Assembly: GCA_958296045.1 (NCBI GenBank)
Contig: CATQHT010000003.1
Location: 1,313,246 to 1,377,245, forward strand
Source of the DNA: Rhodothermales bacterium
Lineage (GTDB): Bacteria; Bacteroidota; Rhodothermia; Rhodothermales; Bin80
Direction: 5' to 3'
Length of the DNA: 64,000 nucleotides
Position numbers and translations under genes: made by a program
Part shown: in pieces, positions 45,512 through 57,418 of the stretch
Numbering within the stretch: position 1 is the stretch's first letter
Layout of the letters: every line of letters starts with the position of its first letter
Notes under the pieces: model-generated
What the model saw: the letters and a program-made list of their open reading frames with translations, nothing else
The model's database searches: none
What the model was told of the DNA's origin: nothing

Positions 45512-46361
45512 TCGGATCAGGGTGGGCCCCCGTCACAGGACAACGCACCCAAACCCCCAACTGGGCCCAGCCAGACCCCCTGCCATCGCTCACGCCTGAC
45601 CGCTCGTGAAATCGGTGGGATACAATTCTCACTTGCGATAGGGAGCTCTGTTTCACCGACGAGCCTGCTAAGAGTCGAGGCCGGAAATGAAGGGTAAGGT
45701 TACCCAGATATAGAAGGCCTTCATGAGTATGGACGACTCAGAAACCAAGCGCCATGGCGCCTTCTTTCAGGTCCGTATACAGATGACGAAACCCCATTCA
45801 TCACATGCTACAGGAATGGACCATCTTGCTACACTGAAGGAGTGGCGGAAGGCACACCTGCCGTAGGTTCTGGCGGCAGTACTGTTGCTTCGCTTGGGAA
45901 CTTGGTCGGGCTTCCATGAACGTGTTTCCTGCCAGCGCCCTCCAAGCCGGGCGAGCGAGGTTCCCGCAACCGGCCTTCTAGGTGGATCGTGCGCTTTGCA
46001 ACTTGAGTGCTAACGCAGCCGTGCTGGGCTTTTGCTACGCAGCAGCGTGCACTGCCAGTATAGCCTCCCAATGCCCTGCCGGGACCGTTTGTCTGGACCG
46101 CACAATGATGCTGCCAGATTACGACTTTGCACCACTGTCCTGGCGTTGTCCGTAGCGCCGTCCACAGATTCCAAATATCATTCACAGGAGCCGGGCTTCC
46201 GAGCAGGGTGTAGGTCTGGATTTTACGCAATTCGTGTCAGCCGCGCGGTAAAGGCCTGGAGCAGGCCTACTAGCGTAACGACCTACTGAAGCGCAGCGGC
46301 GAGATGCAAGCTCAGGCCAACTACGTTCGGAACATACAACAGCAATCCACCGTCCGATGGT
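45512..46361 (+). other. gene-poor stretch before the DUF4365 module
   Basis: About 850 bases. No frame with a domain, no tRNA and no clear repeat. Marks the change from core-like to accessory DNA. Confidence 0.5.
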
Positions 46362-46368
46362 AAGGAGG
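46362..46368 (+). promoter_or_regulatory. Shine-Dalgarno sequence AAGGAGG before a non-standard start
   Basis: AAGGAGG ends seven bases before ATC 46376. Strong ribosome-binding sites are rare in this window, so its presence exactly where the DUF4365 frame needs a start supports translation from about here although no ATG, GTG or TTG is available in frame. Confidence 0.5.
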
Positions 46369-46375
46369 GTGCGCC

Positions 46376-46933
46376 ATCGACATTAGAGTACAACGTTTTC
46401 TCCTGTCGCGTTCTACCCCAACCCTTAGCACAATACAAGTACCTGAGCCGGTAGCGGGCACACTCCTGACAGACAATCAGCGGAAAGCTGAGATTTCTTT
46501 AGCTTACCTTGCCGCATTGGCGGCTAGGGATGGGTACCTCATGCAGCCCGAACCGCACCCCGACATGGACAGCATCGACGCGACGATCCGGAGGGGACCT
46601 CCGAACAGGAGGGTGATTGACATTCAGCTGAAGGCTACGGCGTCCCCCGTCCACAAGAAGGACGGGCTCCACTTTCGTCTCAAGCAGAAGAACTACAACG
46701 ATCTGGTGGGATCCCGAAGTGTGCCCTTGCTGCTTGTCGTCCTTGAACTCCCGGCCAACGAAGCGGAGTGGCTGGAGTGCACACTAGAGCGTTTGATCAT
46801 CAGGAAGTGCGGGTGGTGGCATTCGCTTGCTGGCCAGGAATCCATCGAGGCCGGATCTCGGACCATCGTGATACCTTATTCTCAACGCATCAGTGGTTCA
46901 GGACTCGCGCCGCTGTTCGCACAGGTCGAATAG
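46376..46933 (+). CDS. DUF4365 nuclease-like protein (start codon non-standard or mutated)
   Basis: About 185 residues if translation begins at ATC 46376 (ATT 46382 and CTG 46403 are alternatives). The first standard start in frame, TTG 46517, would remove conserved sequence (DNQRKAEISLAYLAALAA), so the gene must start earlier; the frame's previous stop is at 46361-46363. Core motifs: PEPHPDMDSIDATI, VIDIQLKAT, KNYNDL, PLLLVVLELP, EWLECT, WWHSLAG and TIVIPYSQ, which is the DUF4365 pattern. An aspartate (SID) followed by QLK resembles a PD-(D/E)xK nuclease centre in its Q-x-K variant. The next gene begins two bases after its stop. DUF4365 proteins are recurrent in accessory and defence-rich regions. 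Confidence 0.8.
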   Translation: MDIRVQRFLLSRSTPTLSTIQVPEPVAGTLLTDNQRKAEISLAYLAALAARDGYLMQPEPHPDMDSIDATIRRGPPNRRVIDIQLKATASPVHKKDGLHFRLKQKNYNDLVGSRSVPLLLVVLELPANEAEWLECTLERLIIRKCGWWHSLAGQESIEAGSRTIVIPYSQRISGSGLAPLFAQVE

Positions 46934-46935
46934 GC

Positions 46936-48105
46936 ATGACCACAAACAGGTTGATGAACGAGATCACACTGGCCAAGACTATTGCCCTTCGCGCCGTCCA
47001 CGCCTATTTGCGCGCCAACGGTTGGGTTCGTGACGACACTGTAAGCCGGGCCACAGCGGACGTTTATCTGTGGCCGAGGGACGACCGAGAATTCGCCATC
47101 GTCCCCGCGTCAGAGGAGTATGGTGACTACGGCACCCGTATTTATCAGATCGCGGAGCAGATCGGCCGGATCGAAGGGCGGAATACGCTGGCCGCGCTTA
47201 CCGATCTCTCGCTTGCCGACTCGGATCTCGTGCGCGTTCGCCTCCCCCATGTACACGCGGACAACACTGTCCGTCTCGCGGACGGTGCAGCAGTGCTTGA
47301 GGAGGCAATAAATCTCTTGTTGGCCGCAGCGTGCTCGGCTGACCGGCCTCAGCGCATGTATCGGGCGGGCCGCAACAGGGTGGCTCGAGCATACCTGGAA
47401 CGCGTGCGCTTGGGCCACACTGAGCCCGGCAGCTACGTGATCAACCTTCTTTCGCCCGTGGCTCCTTACCTCCGTGAACCAGGTACGCTGCTGCCCGAAG
47501 AGCCATTTGAGCGCAGGGTTACACGTAAACTAGCCTCCGGTTTGCAAGGATCGAGACAAGCGATGGACCGAGTCAATCGAGGCGTAGCAGACATCGGCGA
47601 ATTCGAGAGGCGGTTAGGCGAAGGCATCAGTGCCAATCTATGCCGATCTGTCGCGAGGCTTACCGAGGTAGGACGAGGTCTTGAGGTGTCCGTCAGCTGG
47701 GCCATAACGAGACCGAAACAGGAGGAGGTCGGTGAGCGGATCACAGTCGCCTTCAGGCCGCCCGATGTCGCTGTCCTTAACGAAGCCGCCCGGGTACTTG
47801 GCAACCGCCAAGAGCGCACCAACGAGGAGATTAATGGGTATGTCTCACGGCTAACGCGGAACGAGGAGGATCGGATGGGGACGGCTACCATCAAGGCGTT
47901 TGTTGATGGAACGATGGCTTCCGTCCAGGCAGTCTTCGATGCAGAGGACTACACGAAGATCACGCATGCACATGAGGCGCGCCTAAGCATATCACTCGAG
48001 GGGGACTTGCACCGGGAGGGGCAGCGGTGGCGCCTCCGGAATCCGCGCGCCGTCACCGTAATTGAAGATGACGATTTCACCTTACTTGGCCTGAGCCATC
48101 AATGA
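46936..48105 (+). CDS. unknown 389-residue protein paired with DUF4365
   Basis: 389 residues from ATG 46936. No signal peptide or membrane span; soluble and charged. Visible features: an N-terminal block (AVHAYLRANGWVRDD, DREFAIVPASEEYGDY, RIYQIAEQIGRIEGR), a central LLLAAACSADRPQRMYRAGR and ARAYLERVRLGHTEPGSYV, a helical middle (RQAMDRVNRGVADIGEFERR), and a C-terminal beta-rich half (ITVAFRPPDVAVLNEAARVL, AHEARLSISLEGDLHREG, FTLLGLSHQ). I do not recognise a named domain. Tight coupling to a nuclease-like gene suggests a two-protein system, perhaps defence; that is inference. The gene looks intact. Confidence 0.8.
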   Translation: MTTNRLMNEITLAKTIALRAVHAYLRANGWVRDDTVSRATADVYLWPRDDREFAIVPASEEYGDYGTRIYQIAEQIGRIEGRNTLAALTDLSLADSDLVRVRLPHVHADNTVRLADGAAVLEEAINLLLAAACSADRPQRMYRAGRNRVARAYLERVRLGHTEPGSYVINLLSPVAPYLREPGTLLPEEPFERRVTRKLASGLQGSRQAMDRVNRGVADIGEFERRLGEGISANLCRSVARLTEVGRGLEVSVSWAITRPKQEEVGERITVAFRPPDVAVLNEAARVLGNRQERTNEEINGYVSRLTRNEEDRMGTATIKAFVDGTMASVQAVFDAEDYTKITHAHEARLSISLEGDLHREGQRWRLRNPRAVTVIEDDDFTLLGLSHQ

Positions 48106-48665: not shown

Positions 48666-49752
48666 ATGAAGCATCGAAAGCATGTTGTCTACGGCCGTTG
48701 CTGCGCTGTTTTTCTTGGCCGGATGCGACTCGGCCACGGTATCGGATGCGGATGCGGTGCCTAACTTCGAGTATGCGGCGATTGATGCGCAGGAGATTGA
48801 GTCCCTCGCAGCCTTGGCTGCGTCCGGTACTGAGGCGCAGGAACCAGTATTTGAATTCAGTGCCGATAATCGGCCTGTGCAGAGGTTTGCCTCTATGGCT
48901 GAATATTAGGTCGCCTTGGATTTCACTATGGAAGAATCCGCCTTGCGTGATGCGCCGATCAAAATCCACCCAGCGCTTAGACGGTACGTAAAGTTCAGCC
49001 GCATGGTGCCGATGATTGAGCTCGCCATGGTGAATCAGGACGGCCAGCTGATTGTTGGCGATACGCTATACTCACTGCGCGGCGCATCGTACTCGAAGCG
49101 GCATCTTGTCTCCCGGGAGGAGGCTACCTTTCCGCTGGAGGAGTTCGATCCATCGGCGACCATGGAAGTTCGTCTGAATGCGGCCTTAGCAAAGAGGAAG
49201 GCGTCTAGCGTTACAGAGCTGTTTGGCACGCAGGGCACCACTGGGACGCATTCAGGTTGCGGAAGGTCGAATAGATTTGACTTTCTTAGCAACCCCGCGC
49301 GGCGCCACGAGACGACGACCATGTGCGTACATGATTTCAGATACCCCAGCATTAGAGTAGATCCAGAAGATTATGACTTCACGCCTAACGCTCCTGGTGC
49401 CATTGTGATGTGGAACACGTCGTACCGGACGTGGACTGACCGGACGTGGGGAGAAGCTTATACTCGATTCTACAAGTACAGAAGGATTGGCTCAATGTTG
49501 AAGCTTGCTACCGTAAGCAGCAGTGACTTGCCAAGAGAATATCCTCGGTCCACGGAGGCCACGGTGATGACGCAGCAACGCCGTTGGAGGGATGTTAAAT
49601 TTGTGTGCAGAGGCCTGCGTTCAGCACTCAATCATGGTGGACTGGTCGTACGAGCAAGCATTGCCAGATGTGCAGGAACAGGGACATGGAGCAAGCATAC
49701 GGCACTCATGGCCAATGTGCAGAATCTGCCCAACAAATATGGCATCGATTGA
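48666..49752 (+). pseudogene. broken lipoprotein gene of unknown family
   Basis: The Shine-Dalgarno at 48651 points to ATG 48666 (MKHRK), but the lipoprotein signal (MLSTAVAALFFLAGC) is in the frame of ATG 48682, so a small indel probably separates them. That frame then meets TAG at 48907-48909 (after FASMAEY) and continues undamaged to 49752 (ALDFTMEESALRDAP, IVGDTLYSLRG, HDFRYPSIRVDPEDYDF, AIVMWNTSYRTWTD). A glutamine codon would fit the TAG. The product would be a lipoprotein of about 350 residues. I do not recognise the family. It directly precedes the TonB receptor/DUF4249 pair. Confidence 0.6.
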
Positions 49753-49835
49753 TTCCTAACAGACCCTGTCTTCTGTTGCTCGGGCAGCATGGCATGTTGA
49801 ACATGCTCTATCCAAACAGCATTGGGAGTAGCGCT

Positions 49836-52319
49836 ATGAGACCTGATTCCCTGCTGTCGGCGCGGTGGCTTCGCTGCTGTTGGCTTCTGATCGCTTGGAC
49901 CTGCGCTTGGCTGACACCATGGACTGGGGCTGGCTTCGATGGAGCCATTGGTACGACGCTGCTCAGCATAAAAAGTAACGTACGCGCAACGCAAGAGGCC
50001 ACGTACACGGTGAGCGGGTACGTCACTGACGCCGAAAGCGGAGAGACCATCGTCGGCGCAACTGTGTATGTGCCCGACCGCGATCGCGGCACGACAACGA
50101 ATCAATACGGCTTCTTCAGCCTCTCCCTGAAAGCTGATTCGGTCATATTCGTGTTCTCGCACCTTTCGTATACGGCACAGACTGTGCGCATCTGGCTGGA
50201 GCAGGACCTGCGCCTCGACGTCACGATGCCGCTACGGTCGGTGTACCTTGATGAAGTCCAGGTCGTAGCAGATGCGGACGACATTGTCCAGGCCATGCAG
50301 ATGAGCCAAATCACGCTGCCCATACAGGCGCTGCAGTCCGTTCCCGCGCTTCTAGGCGAGTCCGACCTCTTAAGAGTGTTACAGCTTCTTCCAGGCGTAG
50401 CGTCTGGACGAGAGGCAACGAGCGGAATCTACGTTCGTGGTGGCGGACCGGATCAGAACCTGATTCTCTTGGACGGTGTGACGGTCTACAACGTTTTCCA
50501 CCTGTTCGGCTTTCTCAGTGCTTTCAATGGAGACGCCATAAAGGATGTTGCGCTCATCAAAGGAGGATTCCCGGCGCGCTATGGAGGCCGTCTCTCGTCG
50601 GTCGTTGACATAACGATGAAAGAAGGTAATCGGAAGGAATTCACGGGATCGGCCGACGCGGGAATCGTGGCTGCCAGAGCAACTGTCGAAGGGCCGCTGC
50701 GCAAAGATCACGCCTCGTTTCTCGTATCTGCGCGACGCACCTACTTGGACCTTCTTGCTTGGCCACTGATGCCAAAGCACAATAAATTTGGCTACAACTT
50801 CTATGACGTAAACGCCAAAGTGAGCGCGATTCTTTCTGATCGCGACCGCGTGTATGTGGCCTTCTACTCGGGACATGACCATATCTCGTCCCGCCAGACA
50901 TCGAAACCTGACGCACCCGTCAACAACCGCGCCGAGACCGACGTCGGCTGGCGCAACTTGGCAACTACGGCACGTTGGACCCGCATCCTGAGCTCTGACC
51001 TCTTTTTGAGTGTGCTTGGCGGCTACACGCGTTTCCTCCTGCGCAGTAGAAGCGAATCTGTCAGCCGGCTGGAATTCGAGCCAGAAATCCCGACGGAATA
51101 TTATTTTTCAAGCCTTCTGAGTGGAATTGCCGATGGTCTGCTGCGTGCCGATCTTCAATACACGCTAGGGCGTGACCATATCATCAGGGCTGGCGCCGCA
51201 GGTACTTTCCATCAGTACAATACGGGCACCCTGCAGCATCGACTCTCGGGAGCCGGGCTTGCCCCCGTTGATACACTTCTAGTCCCGGATCAGTTGACCA
51301 GCAGCATTGAGGCCAACGCTTATGGTGAGATTGAGGTCCGTATTGCACCGCAACTGAAGGTCAATGCCGGACTGCATCTCTCGGCGTTTGGAGTTGGGGC
51401 CGCTACGTATACCTCAGTGCAACCGCGATTCAGCCTCTGGTGGGGCCTCGCGCCAAAAGCAGCGCTGAAGGCGTCGTATGCAACGATGCAGCAATATGTC
51501 CACCTCCTGCCTTCTGGAACCGGCCTCACACTGCCATCGGATCTGTGGGTGCCGGCTACCGAGCGGATCCAACCCCAAGTGGCCGACCAAGTGGCAATGG
51601 GGATAGCTACGACCATGTTGGATGATCGCATTGCCGTCACGCTGGAGGGGTATTCAAAGCGTATGCGGCACGTGATCGAATACAAGGACGGCGTTGAAAC
51701 AACGATGTCAGGCTCCGGCGACTGGCAAGACAACGTGACCATCGGTCGCGGATGGTCGTACGGAATCGAGGTCTTCGTTCAAAAGCGATCAGGGCGAACG
51801 ACAGGCTGGATCGGATACACACTGTCACGGTCGATGCGGAAATTTGAACACCTTAACGGCGGCAAGCCATTTCCGTATACCTACGATCGTCTTCACGATG
51901 CCTCAGTCGTGGTGACGCACAGACTGCGCCCAACGGTGGAATTATCAGGAACGTGGGTGTATGGAACCGGCCAGGCGCTGTGGCTGCCGATTGGACAGTA
52001 TTACGGTCATTTTCACGACGCAGGCGACACATCCGTCAGCCCGGGTGAGGCAGAAACCCTGCTTATTTTCGGTCCTCGGAATTCGTCGCGCATGCCCGCC
52101 TATCACCGCCTCGATCTTGCCGTGCGACTGCATAAAGAAAGACGGCATACCAGGCAGACCTGGTCATTCGGGTTGTACAACGCATACAATCGCCGGAACG
52201 CTTTCGCGGTAACGTCCACTGTAGTTGCCGCTGAAGACAGAGGTCCAAGCCACATGGAATTCAAGAAGTTCACCCTGTTCCCGATCATACCGTTCGCCAC
52301 GTTCAGGCTGGAGTGGTAG
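49836..52319 (+). CDS. TonB-dependent receptor with carboxypeptidase-regulatory-like N-domain
   Basis: 827 residues from ATG 49836; ATG 49794 and 49803 are possible earlier starts. A hydrophobic export segment (WLLIAWTCAWL) precedes a CarboxypepD_reg-like domain (YTVSGYVTDAESGETIVGA, TTNQYGFFSLSL), a plug domain (LLRVLQLLPGVASGREATS, IYVRGGGPDQNLILLDGV, HLFGFLSAFNGDAIKDV, GGFPARYGGRLSSVVDI) and a 22-strand-type barrel ending FATFRLEW. Such receptors import ligands using TonB energy. The DUF4249 lipoprotein gene starts right after the stop (no gap), a pair typical for Bacteroidota. Substrate unknown. Confidence 0.93.
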   Translation: MRPDSLLSARWLRCCWLLIAWTCAWLTPWTGAGFDGAIGTTLLSIKSNVRATQEATYTVSGYVTDAESGETIVGATVYVPDRDRGTTTNQYGFFSLSLKADSVIFVFSHLSYTAQTVRIWLEQDLRLDVTMPLRSVYLDEVQVVADADDIVQAMQMSQITLPIQALQSVPALLGESDLLRVLQLLPGVASGREATSGIYVRGGGPDQNLILLDGVTVYNVFHLFGFLSAFNGDAIKDVALIKGGFPARYGGRLSSVVDITMKEGNRKEFTGSADAGIVAARATVEGPLRKDHASFLVSARRTYLDLLAWPLMPKHNKFGYNFYDVNAKVSAILSDRDRVYVAFYSGHDHISSRQTSKPDAPVNNRAETDVGWRNLATTARWTRILSSDLFLSVLGGYTRFLLRSRSESVSRLEFEPEIPTEYYFSSLLSGIADGLLRADLQYTLGRDHIIRAGAAGTFHQYNTGTLQHRLSGAGLAPVDTLLVPDQLTSSIEANAYGEIEVRIAPQLKVNAGLHLSAFGVGAATYTSVQPRFSLWWGLAPKAALKASYATMQQYVHLLPSGTGLTLPSDLWVPATERIQPQVADQVAMGIATTMLDDRIAVTLEGYSKRMRHVIEYKDGVETTMSGSGDWQDNVTIGRGWSYGIEVFVQKRSGRTTGWIGYTLSRSMRKFEHLNGGKPFPYTYDRLHDASVVVTHRLRPTVELSGTWVYGTGQALWLPIGQYYGHFHDAGDTSVSPGEAETLLIFGPRNSSRMPAYHRLDLAVRLHKERRHTRQTWSFGLYNAYNRRNAFAVTSTVVAAEDRGPSHMEFKKFTLFPIIPFATFRLEW

Positions 52320-53294
52320 ATGAAAATCCATTTTCCTTACTTGCTGGCCGCTACCGGCAGCATGCTCCTGGCAGCCTGTGAGACCGTGATTGAGATTGAT
52401 CCGCCGCCGTATGAGCCGCAGCTCGTTGTCACCAGCCACTTCGCACCAGACAGCGTCTGGTCCACGTTCATCCACACGAGTCTGGGCGTTGCCACTGCCG
52501 TGAATCCCAGACTGCAGGTGGTCAATGATGCGGTTGTCAAAATCCTACATGCTGGCGGTGTTGTGGACGAACTCGTATATGATGGTCGCGGCCGCTACGT
52601 GTCCAGAAGCAACACGTATCCAGAGGCTGGCAAGTCGTATCGGTTAAGCGTCGAAACACACGAATGGCCCTCCGTCAGCGCGGAATCGGCAGCACCGGTA
52701 CCTGCGCCAATTATTGAAACCGACTTCTTTGTGGTGCGCGCTGTGCCTTATCCTCCGTTCACAGTGGAATACGAGCTTCGGCTCCAGTTTCGCATTGAAG
52801 ATGCACCAGGAAAAAACTATTATAGGTTCGCGGTTTACTGGTACTGGGCAAACGACGAAGCGCGCTGGTATCCAGACGCTGGGCTTCCAGACAGTGCGTA
52901 CCGGATCGTAGGGTTGCAGGCTGGTGAGGTTTCTTGGTTTTGCGGGTATGATTATGCGGCTAGCGCAACGCCCATCGAACGGGAGCCAGGTTTAACTTGC
53001 GAAGAGGGAGTGGTCACAGATCGGCTTTTCGATGGACAGACGTACCAGTTCAGTGCAACGGTAACCTTTGCCGTGCACTCCATCGGTAGTGCCAGAAGAA
53101 ACGAATTACTGTTGTTACTATCAACGCTGAGCGAAGACTATTTCGAATACCAGCGTACGCTGCAAACCCAGACCTCCTGGAATGGGACCGTCTCCATTCC
53201 CCTGAATGTCTACTCCAACGTTGACGGAGGACAGGGAGTGTTTGCAGGTTACTCCAACACTACTCGCATTCTCCCGATCCCGTCTGACCAATAA
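52320..53294 (+). CDS. DUF4249 lipoprotein (TonB receptor partner)
   Basis: 324 residues from ATG 52320, immediately after the receptor stop. Signal MKIHFPYLLAATGSMLLAAC with lipobox, then ETVIEIDPPPYEPQLVV, the usual DUF4249 start. Beta-rich body with paired blocks (VVNDAVVKILHAGG, YPEAGKSYRLSVETHEWP, FRIEDAPGKNYYRFAVYWY, LSEDYFEYQRTLQTQT, GGQGVFAGYSNTTRI). Members are surface lipoproteins that probably sit on the receptor and help capture its ligand, like SusD-type partners, though without SusD similarity. Complete and intact. Confidence 0.92.
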   Translation: MKIHFPYLLAATGSMLLAACETVIEIDPPPYEPQLVVTSHFAPDSVWSTFIHTSLGVATAVNPRLQVVNDAVVKILHAGGVVDELVYDGRGRYVSRSNTYPEAGKSYRLSVETHEWPSVSAESAAPVPAPIIETDFFVVRAVPYPPFTVEYELRLQFRIEDAPGKNYYRFAVYWYWANDEARWYPDAGLPDSAYRIVGLQAGEVSWFCGYDYAASATPIEREPGLTCEEGVVTDRLFDGQTYQFSATVTFAVHSIGSARRNELLLLLSTLSEDYFEYQRTLQTQTSWNGTVSIPLNVYSNVDGGQGVFAGYSNTTRILPIPSDQ

Positions 53295-53814
53295 GCCCGC
53301 AGGTTTCACAAGTGGGAGGTCCTGGGCGGCCGTTGGGGGAAGATGGCTGGGGCAGGTGTATGGACTGTTGATGGGGGCGCAGTCGTGGCACGAGAGGGCG
53401 ATTTCGGGGGCTCGCGGCGTGCCATTGGTGTTTTTTGCCGCTCAGCGGGGCGTATTAACGTCGCGCGTGCGTCGTCGCTTGGCGCAGGGCTCTAGTTGGT
53501 GCTTATCAGAAAATAGGGCATTTTGGGCGTCTGCCTGGCTGGAGCAAGGTCGGGGGCACGCTGGGGGCCCGATAGCGACACTGGTCTGAGCGATGGGAAG
53601 GGTAACAGAAGCGCTGCGCGGCCATTTTTGACACTCAACCGGGCTTCGTTAGCTCCTGGCGGCGCAGAGTGGATACAGCTTACCCGTCGCGGGCTTGTCG
53701 GAGACAGAAAAAGAAGGGCTCAGCCGAAGCTGGAGCGGCCGAGCCTTAAGTGGCCTTCGCGCGAGCGGCGTGCCATGCTCGTCGTTTCGCTTCTTTCTTC
53801 CTGACCACTTTGCC
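53295..53814 (+). other. decayed mobile DNA between DUF4249 and an IS remnant
   Basis: Contains repeat copy B at its left end. The rest has one long but unassignable open frame (53311-53589) whose beginning overlaps the repeat; it has no domain I recognise. Confidence 0.5.
53306..53378 (+). repeat. dispersed repeat B (partner of 19057-19130)
   Basis: About 70 bases highly similar to 19057-19130, starting eleven bases after the DUF4249 stop. The terminal G-run is five here against fifteen in the other copy. Confidence 0.7.
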
Positions 53815-54158
53815 TCATCGGTGAATGTTTGCCGCCAGCACCGCCAGCCCTACCGACCGATCGAAGCCCTCCTTTCCGTGGGTACGTATGAGCCCCATCC
53901 CCCGCTGTTGCAGGTTGTTGATGGCGGACTCGATCGCAGGATGCTGTTGACGCGCCTTGATAAAATCGGGATGAGACTCCCGCTCGCGTTGTTTCGCATT
54001 GCGGTAACCAGGCTTGGGCATGACGTTCAAGTCCAGCAGCTCATCCAAGGCGTCGCGATTCTTCGCAGAGTAGAAGCCCTTATCCATGCTGCAGGACGTA
54101 AGCGACGGATAGCGCTTCATTGCTTCGCCTATGAAACCCACGATCATGGCCTTATCGC
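53815..54158 (-). pseudogene. ISNCY-type transposase, C-terminal fragment
   Basis: Read leftwards from 54158: DKAMIVGFIGEAMKRYPSL, CSMDKGFYSAKNRDALDEL, MPKPGYRNAKQRERESH, ARQQHPAIESAINNLQQRG, HGKEGFDRSVGLAVLAANI. This is the usual C-terminal end of ISNCY transposases, including the SMDKGF acid and the HxAxESAIN glutamate. It is the missing continuation of the fragment at 57449-58040; the two were separated by the 3.3-kb recombinase element. Confidence 0.85.
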
Positions 54159-54242
54159 ACGTTGCCGAATGCGAAGCAGCCGGAATCGTCGTTAGCCCAC
54201 GCCAGCGGATCATCCTTACCGAATGCCGGTCGGCGACAGGGT

Positions 54243-54524
54243 ATGGCGGATTCTGGCTCGGATGACTGGGTAGAGGTCACGCATCCTTTCCATCCATGGT
54301 TTGGTCGCCGATTTCCGCGCCAATACTGCCTGACAATTGGCAATGTGCGGCTGGTACGCTGCATTGTGGATGAAAACACGCTACGGTGTTTGCCCAGGGC
54401 GTGGACAGACTTGCGCGTGGTAGACGACTTCGAGCGGGTTTCAGCGGGCCGTGCCCTCTTTCGGGCAGACGATCTTGTGGCCCTGAGGTCGCTGGTGGAC
54501 ACGCTTTTGGAGGAACACCTTTAA
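54243..54524 (+). CDS. DUF5372-like protein of recombinase elements
   Basis: 93 residues from ATG 54243; a TTG at 54162, just inside the element, could extend it. Core wording EVTHPFHPWFGRRF, CLPRAWTDLR and ERVSAGRALFRADDLVALRSLVD is that of the small proteins (DUF5372 type) that accompany serine recombinases in bacterial transposable elements. The THPFHP-WFG start and the SAGRA-FR-DDL end are the best marks. Function unknown; a DNA-end or recombinase accessory role is inferred from co-occurrence. Confidence 0.75.
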   Translation: MADSGSDDWVEVTHPFHPWFGRRFPRQYCLTIGNVRLVRCIVDENTLRCLPRAWTDLRVVDDFERVSAGRALFRADDLVALRSLVDTLLEEHL

Positions 54525-54659
54525 TGCAACGCATAATCGCGTATTGCGCAACTTCGTGGCCAATGAGCTGTTTTTTGGCCGTAGTAGGTCGTTATTGTGT
54601 GCCTAGGTTGCATTCCGAAGCGACGTACATATTCCGTGGTGATCATTACTCCTGACGGC

Positions 54660-55100
54660 ATGTCCAGTGACAAGAGCGAGCGCCTGCAGAGGTCAAGAAC
54701 CCTCAACCCGAACCCAGAGGCGGTCTCCGATCCCCTATTTGAGTGCAGCCCCTTCTTCGATCCGCGAGACCTCCTGCAAGTCCGCTACGAGATGATACGC
54801 TCTCATACGAAAGACACGACTCTTGCAGCGGTCGCGGCCCGGTACGGCATGTCTGTACCTACCTGTGTGCGCGTAAAGCGCGCTTTCCGGGCAGGCGGTC
54901 TGCAAGCCCTGATTCCGGAGCGGCGCGGGCCCCGGGGACCCCGCAAGATTACGCCCGAAATCTTAGCGTTTGCCGAGAATTGCCGCGCCTTACCTGACGC
55001 CGTCAGCGTCCGTAAACTCGCCGAGATGATACGCGAACGCTTCGATGTAACCATCCACTACAGCAGCCTTCACCGAGCGCTGTCAAAAAAAAACTCCTAA
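54660..55100 (+). CDS. helix-turn-helix protein of the recombinase element
   Basis: 146 residues from ATG 54660. After a short tail comes DPRDLLQVRYEMIRSH, then a helix-turn-helix (TLAAVAARYGMSVPTCVRVKRAF cut as two helices), a basic-glycine hinge (IPERRGPRGPRK) and a winged second half (EILAFAENCRA, VSVRKLAEMIRERFDVTIHYSSLHRAL). The layout is like the N-terminal half of IS630-type transposases, without any catalytic domain, and is the standard middle gene between DUF5372 and the recombinase. It probably binds DNA as regulator or targeting factor. Confidence 0.78.
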   Translation: MSSDKSERLQRSRTLNPNPEAVSDPLFECSPFFDPRDLLQVRYEMIRSHTKDTTLAAVAARYGMSVPTCVRVKRAFRAGGLQALIPERRGPRGPRKITPEILAFAENCRALPDAVSVRKLAEMIRERFDVTIHYSSLHRALSKKNS

Positions 55101-55183
55101 ACGTGCTGATGACCCATCGCGTGATAGCCAGGACACCCATCGCTATGACCGTTGGCGCCAGCGGTGGCTCAGTGGCCAACACA

Positions 55184-55220
55184 GCCAGGCCATCTCCCTC
55201 CTGTGCCACCATGGCCTGGC
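55184..55220 (+). repeat. perfect 10-bp inverted repeat upstream of the recombinase gene
   Basis: GCCAGGCCAT (55184-55193) and ATGGCCTGGC (55211-55220) are exact complements around a 17-base spacer, in the 257-base gap before the recombinase. No T-run follows. Could be a protein-binding site, an RNA hairpin controlling recombinase expression, or a recombinase accessory site. Confidence 0.7.
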
Positions 55221-55357
55221 CCACGCGCTGGTGCTTACTGCACCGATGCCTAGCACCTGTGCTCCGAGCGAGCCTGCACCCATCGCCCCATCTGCTCCAT
55301 TGCTTAGGCAGGCCTCGTCCATGAGCTGCCATCTCATTCACTCCTTGCGTATCGCCT

Positions 55358-57418
55358 ATGCCCGGACCCTCATCCCATAAAATCACTGCCGACCATCTCA
55401 ACCGCCGGGCCTGCCTGTACATCCGCCAGTCCTCGCTGCATCAGGTGCAGACCCACAAGGAGAGCCAGCACCGTCAGTACGACCTGCGCAGGCGTGCCAT
55501 TGCCTTGGGCTGGCCCGAAGATCGGATTGACGTGATTGACGAGGACCAGGGCAAGTCTGGCGCCACCAGTACCCAACGTATGGGATTCCAGGATCTGCGT
55601 GCGCGTGTCGGTGCTGGAGAAGTGGGCATGGTGCTCAGTCTCGAAGTATCACGCCTGTGCCGAGACAATGCGGAATGGCATCAATTGCTTCGGATCGCAG
55701 CCGTGGCAAAGACCCTCATCCTGGACGAGCATGGCATTTACGACGTAGGCGACATCAACGACTGGATGCTGCTCGGGCTCAAGGGGCAGCTCTCGGAGTA
55801 CGAACTGCGCGGCATACGCGCACGCATGGTTGGGGGACAGCGCTCGAAGGCACTGCGTGGAGAGCTCAAGCTTCACTTACCGATCGGGCTGGCATACATC
55901 GAAGCAGACAGGGTTGTCTTGGATCCAGATCAATCCATCACCGAAGCGATTGCCTTGGTATTCACGACCTTCCGGCGACTGGGGTCCGCCATGCAGACCA
56001 CCCAGTGGTTCCGGCGACAAGCGATTCGCTTACCTTCGCGGCCCCACACGGGTAACAGTGAAGTGCACTGGGCAGTGCCCAATTACAGCCAGATTCAGCG
56101 CATCCTCCATAATCCCCGCTATGCCGGCTGCTACGCCTACGGCCGTACGGGCATGCGCACACGCCCAGATGGGTCCGTGCAGCGTACCTCCCTGCCCATA
56201 GACCAGTGGCTGGTGTGTATTCGGGATGCCCACAAGGGTTACATTGACTGGGAGGAATATTTACACAACCAAGAGACCATGCGCACGAACGCGGCGAGCT
56301 ACCTTGGCGGGGCCGAGCGTACGCCGCCGCCACGCAAGGGGGTGGCCTTGCTTCAATCCCGCATCATTTGCGGCCTGTGTGGTCAGAGGATGCACGTGAA
56401 GTACAACTATAATAACCGCGAAGATGTTAGGTGGTACTATCTGTGCAAGGAGAACGTCGTTCGCCGCGGCACGCGTACCTGCCAAAGCATGCGTGGAGAC
56501 GTGCTGGATGCGGCGGTAGGTCGCTTTGTTGTCGCCGCGGTCAACCGGGAGAACCTGACGCTTTCGCTGATGGTGCGCGAGCAGCTGCGCAGCGACTTTG
56601 AGGCGGCAGATCGCCAGAGAATCAACCATATCGAAAGCTTACGATATCAGGTGGATCTGGCCCGCCGCAGGTACATGGAAGTGGACCCGTCGAATCGCCT
56701 CGTGTCTGCGACGCTGGAGGCCGAATGGGAAGCCCGTCTGAAGGCCCATGGTGAAGCCGTCAGAGAACAAGAGCGGTACAAGAAAGCCCAGCATAGCACA
56801 CCCGATGCCGCGTTGGACCAGCGCATCCTTACGTTGGCCAGCGACTTTGGCACCGTGTGGGAAGCGGCTCATACCACCAACAAGGACCGGAAGCGTCTCT
56901 TGGGATTGCTGATCGAGGACATCACCCTGACCCGAAGGGGATACCAGGTGAATGTCGGATTGCGATTGCGTGGCGGACGAACCCACGAGCTGCCTCCAGT
57001 AGCGTTGCCCCTGCCTCGCGCTACGGTCATCCGTCGCGATGCCTCCAAGCAGGCCCTGGCCGAACTGGAGGAGCTGCTTGAGGCAGGCTACGATGATTCC
57101 CAAGCCGCCGAGGAGCTGAACCTGCGCGGGCACCGCGACAGCTTGGGAGGACGGTTCAACGCAAAACGCATTCGCACCATTCGCGTGCGTCACAAGATGC
57201 CTGGAGGAATCGAGCGGCAACGCGAAAAGATGCGTGCGCAGGGCTACAAAACCGCCAAAGAACTCGCCGCCGAACTCGCAATAGATGTTTCCACGGTAGG
57301 ATGGCGAGCCCGGGAGGGCAGAGGCATTGACGTGCACCAGATCCCTGCCAGCAAGCGTACCTTCGCAATGTATAGAATCAGCCCCAAAATACGAACCACA
57401 GCTACCGCCTCCTCATGA
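55358..57418 (+). CDS. large serine recombinase
   Basis: 686 residues from ATG 55358. N-terminal resolvase domain with catalytic serine in CLYIRQSS and partner residues in EVSRLCRDN and LSEYELRGIRARM; recombinase domain with QRILHNPRYAGCYAYGR; a zinc-ribbon with ICGLCGQRMH and a later CQS; a coiled coil (residues about 400-470, INHIESLRYQVDLARRR); and two C-terminal helix-turn-helix-like blocks (DDSQAAEELNLRGH, AKELAAELAIDVSTV). All domains are intact, so the element may still be mobile. It ends 31 bases before the right-hand core repeat. Confidence 0.93.
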   Translation: MPGPSSHKITADHLNRRACLYIRQSSLHQVQTHKESQHRQYDLRRRAIALGWPEDRIDVIDEDQGKSGATSTQRMGFQDLRARVGAGEVGMVLSLEVSRLCRDNAEWHQLLRIAAVAKTLILDEHGIYDVGDINDWMLLGLKGQLSEYELRGIRARMVGGQRSKALRGELKLHLPIGLAYIEADRVVLDPDQSITEAIALVFTTFRRLGSAMQTTQWFRRQAIRLPSRPHTGNSEVHWAVPNYSQIQRILHNPRYAGCYAYGRTGMRTRPDGSVQRTSLPIDQWLVCIRDAHKGYIDWEEYLHNQETMRTNAASYLGGAERTPPPRKGVALLQSRIICGLCGQRMHVKYNYNNREDVRWYYLCKENVVRRGTRTCQSMRGDVLDAAVGRFVVAAVNRENLTLSLMVREQLRSDFEAADRQRINHIESLRYQVDLARRRYMEVDPSNRLVSATLEAEWEARLKAHGEAVREQERYKKAQHSTPDAALDQRILTLASDFGTVWEAAHTTNKDRKRLLGLLIEDITLTRRGYQVNVGLRLRGGRTHELPPVALPLPRATVIRRDASKQALAELEELLEAGYDDSQAAEELNLRGHRDSLGGRFNAKRIRTIRVRHKMPGGIERQREKMRAQGYKTAKELAAELAIDVSTVGWRAREGRGIDVHQIPASKRTFAMYRISPKIRTTATASS

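Follow-up and report, generated by a model that had tools for sequence, protein, structure and literature searches.

A predicted DREN-type nuclease and its OB-fold partner: a member of the phage-defence candidate PDC-M02 in a Rhodothermales genome

Results

Two adjacent genes, one of them without a canonical start codon

We analyzed a 64,000-nucleotide stretch of a Rhodothermales genome (the window; all positions refer to it unless a locus is named) and found two adjacent genes, A and B, both on the forward strand. Gene A ends with a TAG stop codon (46931-46933), and a 2-bp gap separates it from the ATG of gene B, which encodes exactly 389 amino acids. The initial annotation had described a partner of 389 residues two bases away, preceded by a gene-poor left flank, and we found the same, the gene-poor part covering about 45.5-46.4 kb. 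Its pair, families and context stand; its start coordinate, 46362, does not, as this base falls within a TAA stop (46361-46363) that precedes the frame of A. The features of the region are as follows.

46425-48076, forward strand: DNA with 78-80% similarity to loci in Bryobacterales metagenome-assembled genomes (MAGs) (blastn)
46451-46468, forward strand: degenerate start region of gene A (codon comparison with the related loci L014-L019)
46466-46933, forward strand: gene A, DUF4365, predicted DREN-type PD-(D/E)xK nuclease (Pfam, PADLOC, frame and start analysis)
46577-46633, forward strand: predicted catalytic triad of A, D38 (46577-46579), Q54 (46625-46627) and K56 (46631-46633) (alignment A5)
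46936-48105, forward strand: gene B, PDC-M02B protein, 389 aa (PADLOC, 2.9e-110)
47416-47433, forward strand: motif [HQ]-T-E-x-G-S of B, residues 161-166 (alignments A3 and A6)
47809-48075, forward strand: predicted C-terminal OB-fold domain of B, residues 292-380 (AF2 model m58ca1815f39e, VIA-align)
53300-55350, no strand assigned: multicopy repeat/IS block (41 matches in its own genome)
55358-57418, forward strand: large serine recombinase (Pfam Resolvase, Recombinase and Zn_ribbon_recom)

The open frame of A extends back to 46364, and its first ATG, GTG or TTG appears only at 46517, already within the conserved domain. The codon at 46451 is GTA here; it is GTG in L014 and L015, and L016-L019 have a GTG or ATG nearby. 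A TTG further down in L014 and L015 is CTG in the window (46466), the nearest permitted start for A, from which the protein would have about 155 residues. As a canonical start is absent, A either begins at this CTG or is poorly translated, and the window copy of the pair may not work. The reading frame of A contains neither a stop nor a frameshift, and its dN/dS against six relatives is 0.17-0.22, close to that of B against five relatives (0.12-0.23), so that both genes have values of about 0.2. With its start codon lost, the gene that would do the cutting may be silenced in this copy, or on its way there.

Synteny with relatives extends to about 45.5 kb, beyond which the right side differs. 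The dispersed repeats that the initial annotation placed to the right proved to be multicopy elements at 53.3-55.35 kb with at least 20 genomic copies, comprising elements of about 666 bp (about 20 copies) and about 1200 bp (7 copies) and repeats of about 195 bp, found genome-wide. A scan for local repeats at 45-56 kb gave nothing beyond chance. The TonB-dependent receptor block at 48916-53294 is duplicated with its flanking genes on another contig of the genome (G000:C2:680261-682756), and the receptor copies are 82% identical. Neighboring genes of porin and TonB type suggest a Bacteroidota/Rhodothermia-like host. Ten larger open reading frames at 28-64 kb, compared with Pfam profiles rather than Drm profiles, belong to other Pfam families or to none.

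Gene A has the predicted fold and catalytic residues of DREN domains

The assignment of A to DUF4365 with an Asp plus Q-L-K arrangement was borne out by the Pfam profile (E = 1.4e-18; 67.7 bits, with a gathering cut-off of 24.3) and by the presence of both elements. A also matches the PADLOC profile PDC-M02A (E = 6.8e-41, residues 35-188 aligned to profile positions 3-161 of 167). D38, Q54 and K56 are invariant among the 23 members of alignment A5 and correspond to D41, Q60 and K62 of NbaDREN, which are the catalytic residues of that domain (PMC12205087).

We modeled A from a 23-sequence alignment with AF2 (pLDDT 87.7); the alignments used for structure prediction leave out the loci found in genome searches. 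Among solved structures, the model fits best to DREN (DUF4365) domains from SPARDA complexes (Foldseek E 1.3e-4, TMq 0.66), with a VIA Z of 13.7 and an rmsd of 3.1 over 134 residues for 9qbq_C. Holliday junction resolvases (Z 11.3) and then I-Ssp6803I (Z 8.9) come after DREN. A likeness to EcoRV, seen in weak profile alignments (E 0.13-0.87), was superseded by the DREN match. By predicted fold and catalytic residues, A is a DREN-type PD-(D/E)xK nuclease and would be expected to cut DNA. The isolated NbaDREN domain is monomeric and its nuclease activity is undetectable; it becomes active by forming tetramers on the Ago filament (PMC12205087). A DUF4365-APAZ protein, with predicted active-site residues Q62/K64, degrades DNA non-specifically once its Argonaute partner is activated (PMC10810196).

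The source genome encodes a third DUF4365 protein (L013:1303-2475) of 390 amino acids, apparently with a TPR-type C-terminus, and no B gene adjoins it.

Gene B carries a conserved motif and a predicted OB fold

B matches PDC-M02B over nearly the entire profile (E = 2.9e-110, residues 8-379 aligned to positions 6-377 of 380). Sequence searches of Pfam, NCBIfam and the PDB gave no relative, and B matches phrog_27927, a PHROG of unknown function (5.6e-11). Its most conserved motif is [HQ]TExGS, in which T162, G165 and S166 are invariant.

In the AF2 model of B (pLDDT 86.0, pTM 0.71), residues 292-380 resemble domains of SSB, PriB, RPA and RecO, with Z values of 8-10 over 68-87 residues; these values are middling, and the matches listed are overwhelmingly OB folds. 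We conclude from the model that the C-terminus of B is an OB fold, a likeness at the level of the fold, which suggests nucleic-acid recognition by B and may extend to binding of single-stranded DNA. OB folds bind many types of ligand, protein and sugar among them. The initial annotation had proposed a look for structural matches between the partner protein and a housekeeping enzyme; the full-length model gave none, only the C-terminal OB fold. There was also no Ago chain among the Foldseek matches listed for the full-length model, which covered residues 1-290 as part of it.

A DUF6575-annotated viral protein was the third structural match of B, found against BFVD (Foldseek E 1.2e-6, TM 0.31). 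The DUF6575 family has a reported anti-phage activity in E. coli, and its anti-phage protein is similar in length to B (PMC9519451). However, the structural match is weak, sequence profiles gave no support (hhalign probability 0.2%), and no DUF4365 gene adjoins the one example examined. We rejected DUF6575 as a relative of B and keep the match as a lead only.

A and B are coupled across phyla

With B as the seed, we searched genomes, viral contigs, plasmids and phages and obtained 67 distinct loci (L043 and L047 counted as one), 63 of them with enough upstream sequence. The initial annotation had asked whether the two families co-occur, and they do: A lies immediately upstream of B on the same strand in 56 of the 63 testable loci, which are not phylogenetically independent. 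The stop of A and the start of B often overlap in the relatives. DUF4365 without B exists in other subfamilies, mostly inside longer proteins; no A of the present subfamily was seen without B in the genome surveys. Judged from the sequences, the pairing is far beyond chance, given the dN/dS of about 0.2 in both genes and a gene order kept across phyla.

The hosts include Acidobacteria, Thermoanaerobaculia, Gemmatimonadota, Alpha- and Betaproteobacteria, Spirochaetota, Bacillota, Actinomycetota and Bdellovibrionota, as well as prophages of M. abscessus. The distribution is sporadic (16 of 395 genomes of the phylum), an E. coli collection contained no near or distant match, and some pairs are found on plasmids and prophages. 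The DNA similarity to the closest relatives, the Bryobacterales MAG loci, is confined to A and B. The source genome contains a second A-B pair with ATG starts (L053, G000:C3:2653323-2654902), whose B is 36% identical. As far as sequence comparison can tell, the A-B unit is mobile between bacterial lineages and phyla.

The pair belongs to a catalogued defence candidate

Because both proteins match the PDC-M02 profiles strongly, the pair is one that has already been catalogued as a phage-defence candidate. PDC-M02 is a two-gene computational candidate in PADLOC-DB 2.0.0; the window has a match to each profile, adjacent and on the same strand with A first, and differs from it in no systematic way, apart from the missing canonical start codon of A. 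The window pair is a further member of this known, unvalidated system. New here are nine loci in which A is broken or missing and B is intact, with no case of the reverse, and the loss of the start codon in the window A.

The initial annotation had proposed an uncharacterised defence or conflict system made of a nuclease and an unknown partner. The co-occurrence of the genes, the lack of a housekeeping-enzyme match for the full-length model of B and the neighborhood of DISARM, Iet and PD-Lambda-4 genes in the closest relatives agree with this proposal, and 'uncharacterised' still holds, as the literature searched contained no experimental test or phage assay of PDC-M02. The PDCs were predicted on the basis of guilt by embedding and most await validation (PMC12988326); two other PDC candidates were inactive when tested in the native host (PMC12409345).

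With SPARDA (short pAgo plus DREN/DUF4365-APAZ), the pair has in common the DREN fold and the catalytic D/Q/K residues. In contrast to the SPARDA protein, A is free-standing and consists of the DREN part only (about 155-165 amino acids, no APAZ domain). No Argonaute was recognised, and the partner is B, for which the searches with Pfam and with the full-length model found no relationship to Ago or APAZ.

Relatives of the pair lie among defence genes

The defence context of the relatives is given here by examples rather than by enrichment statistics. In L016 the order on one strand is drmD-drmMI-A-B-drmA-drmB (L016:313-14754), which places the pair within a DISARM operon; the drmC gene of class 1 DISARM (drmD, drmMI, drmA, drmB, drmC) was not found in the tested flanks. 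In L017 an intact pair follows drmMI, drmA and drmB, and degraded A and B fragments of another copy lie exactly at the drmMI-drmA junction (L017:3629-3965). The pair is thus a guest inside or beside DISARM in some relatives. In the window, the Pfam comparison of the ten larger open reading frames turned up no DISARM gene next to the pair. The intact pair of L017 is preceded by a stretch that resembles the 3' end of drmMI.

In L018 the pair is located between IetA/IetS and a PD-Lambda-4 gene. Plasmid copies neighbor cas3, DUF262, Abi, HicA and RelE/ParE genes, and the second pair of the source genome adjoins a PDC-S32/AbiJ_NTD4 gene and a large serine recombinase.

Loss or disruption of A in nine loci that retain an intact B

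The nine loci include four with frameshifts or stops in A (L047, L049, L050 and L051), two with insertions in A (L062, with a remnant of an IS240-type transposase, and L078) and three without A (L044, L045 and L046). Genomes with a broken or missing A include G010, G012, G014 and G015. None of the surveyed loci combined an intact A with a B that is clearly disrupted; the B of L085 is cut by the contig end, and apparent premature stops in the B genes of L014 and L068 are at the natural C-terminus and were not counted as lesions. If lesions are distributed by length, the probability of 6 out of 6 falling in A is 7.5e-4. This is suggestive only of A being lost more often than B, since searches seeded with B are biased toward B-only loci, four of the lesions are in one genus, and L044 and L045 are congeners.

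In L078 the interruption of A is about 700 bp long and looks like an insertion sequence (L078:3716-4984, B intact). A solitary B lies directly 3' of a HEPN (NTase_sub_bind)-MNT nucleotidyltransferase pair in L022 (L022:565-2634), L044 and L045, as though B could partner another effector.

Discussion

We consider it somewhat probable that A and B form a mobile two-gene module against phages or plasmids, in which A serves as effector nuclease and B as its obligate nucleic-acid sensor or scaffold. A would be a DREN-type effector, probably inactive as a monomer. The OB-fold C-terminus of B, possibly together with the domain of the [HQ]TExGS motif, would recognise a nucleic-acid structure associated with the invader, most plausibly single-stranded or replication DNA. 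Once bound, B would assemble or release A, leading to DNA degradation and presumably to a phage phenotype. In the window, A may be weakly expressed from the CTG at 46466, or be en route to silencing. Both the defence role and the direction in which B acts, activating A or restraining it, are what we infer.

The decay of A with B kept fits a nuclease with its partner and an antitoxin-like B alike. The main alternative, a toxin-antitoxin or addiction pair with A as DNase toxin, B mainly as the inhibitor that keeps the pair on mobile DNA, and phage protection as a by-product, would agree with the tight coupling of the genes, the copies on plasmids and prophages, and the occurrence of B without an intact A in nine loci next to the absence from the genome surveys of an A without B. 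We regard it as rather improbable: B exceeds the typical size of an antitoxin and carries a domain of the nucleic-acid type, the B-seeded searches themselves favour B-only loci, and the pair inside a DISARM operon, with decayed remnants there, points to cooperation with defence genes. A housekeeping pair for DNA repair or recombination, made of an Hjc-like resolvase fold and an SSB-like protein, could draw on the resolvases that rank next to DREN among the matches of A and on the SSB-like OB fold of B. This reading is disfavoured and very improbable given the sporadic distribution, the plasmid and prophage copies, the defence-island context and a similarity to distant lineages that is confined to the two genes.

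A further reading concerns the window copy and is compatible with the defence module as the best explanation of the family. This copy could be a decaying relic in which A is not made and B persists, with no present function in defence. The canonical starts of the closest relatives are lost at both positions of the window A, and other members of the family also have a disrupted A or lack it. However, A has kept its reading frame under a low dN/dS, CTG is a permitted start, and the other pair of the same genome is intact and begins with ATG in both genes; a relic is the lesser chance, though an appreciable one.

Returning to the defence module, we put forward more tentatively, as a speculation that is probably wrong in some part, that B is a guide-free OB-fold sensor of single-stranded or replication DNA that assembles DREN units in place of an Argonaute, acting alone or as an alternative nuclease arm of DISARM. 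If true, this would be a second, guide-free activation route for the SPARDA effector.

In guide-directed Argonaute immunity, DREN is the known killing arm and stays inactive until it multimerises. If a widespread system joined this nuclease to an entirely different partner, DREN would prove to be a plug-in effector, and the pair would be a minimal two-gene system for asking how DREN is switched on. The copies embedded in DISARM and the recurrent loss of A from loci that retain B turn a catalogued candidate into one with concrete, testable predictions.
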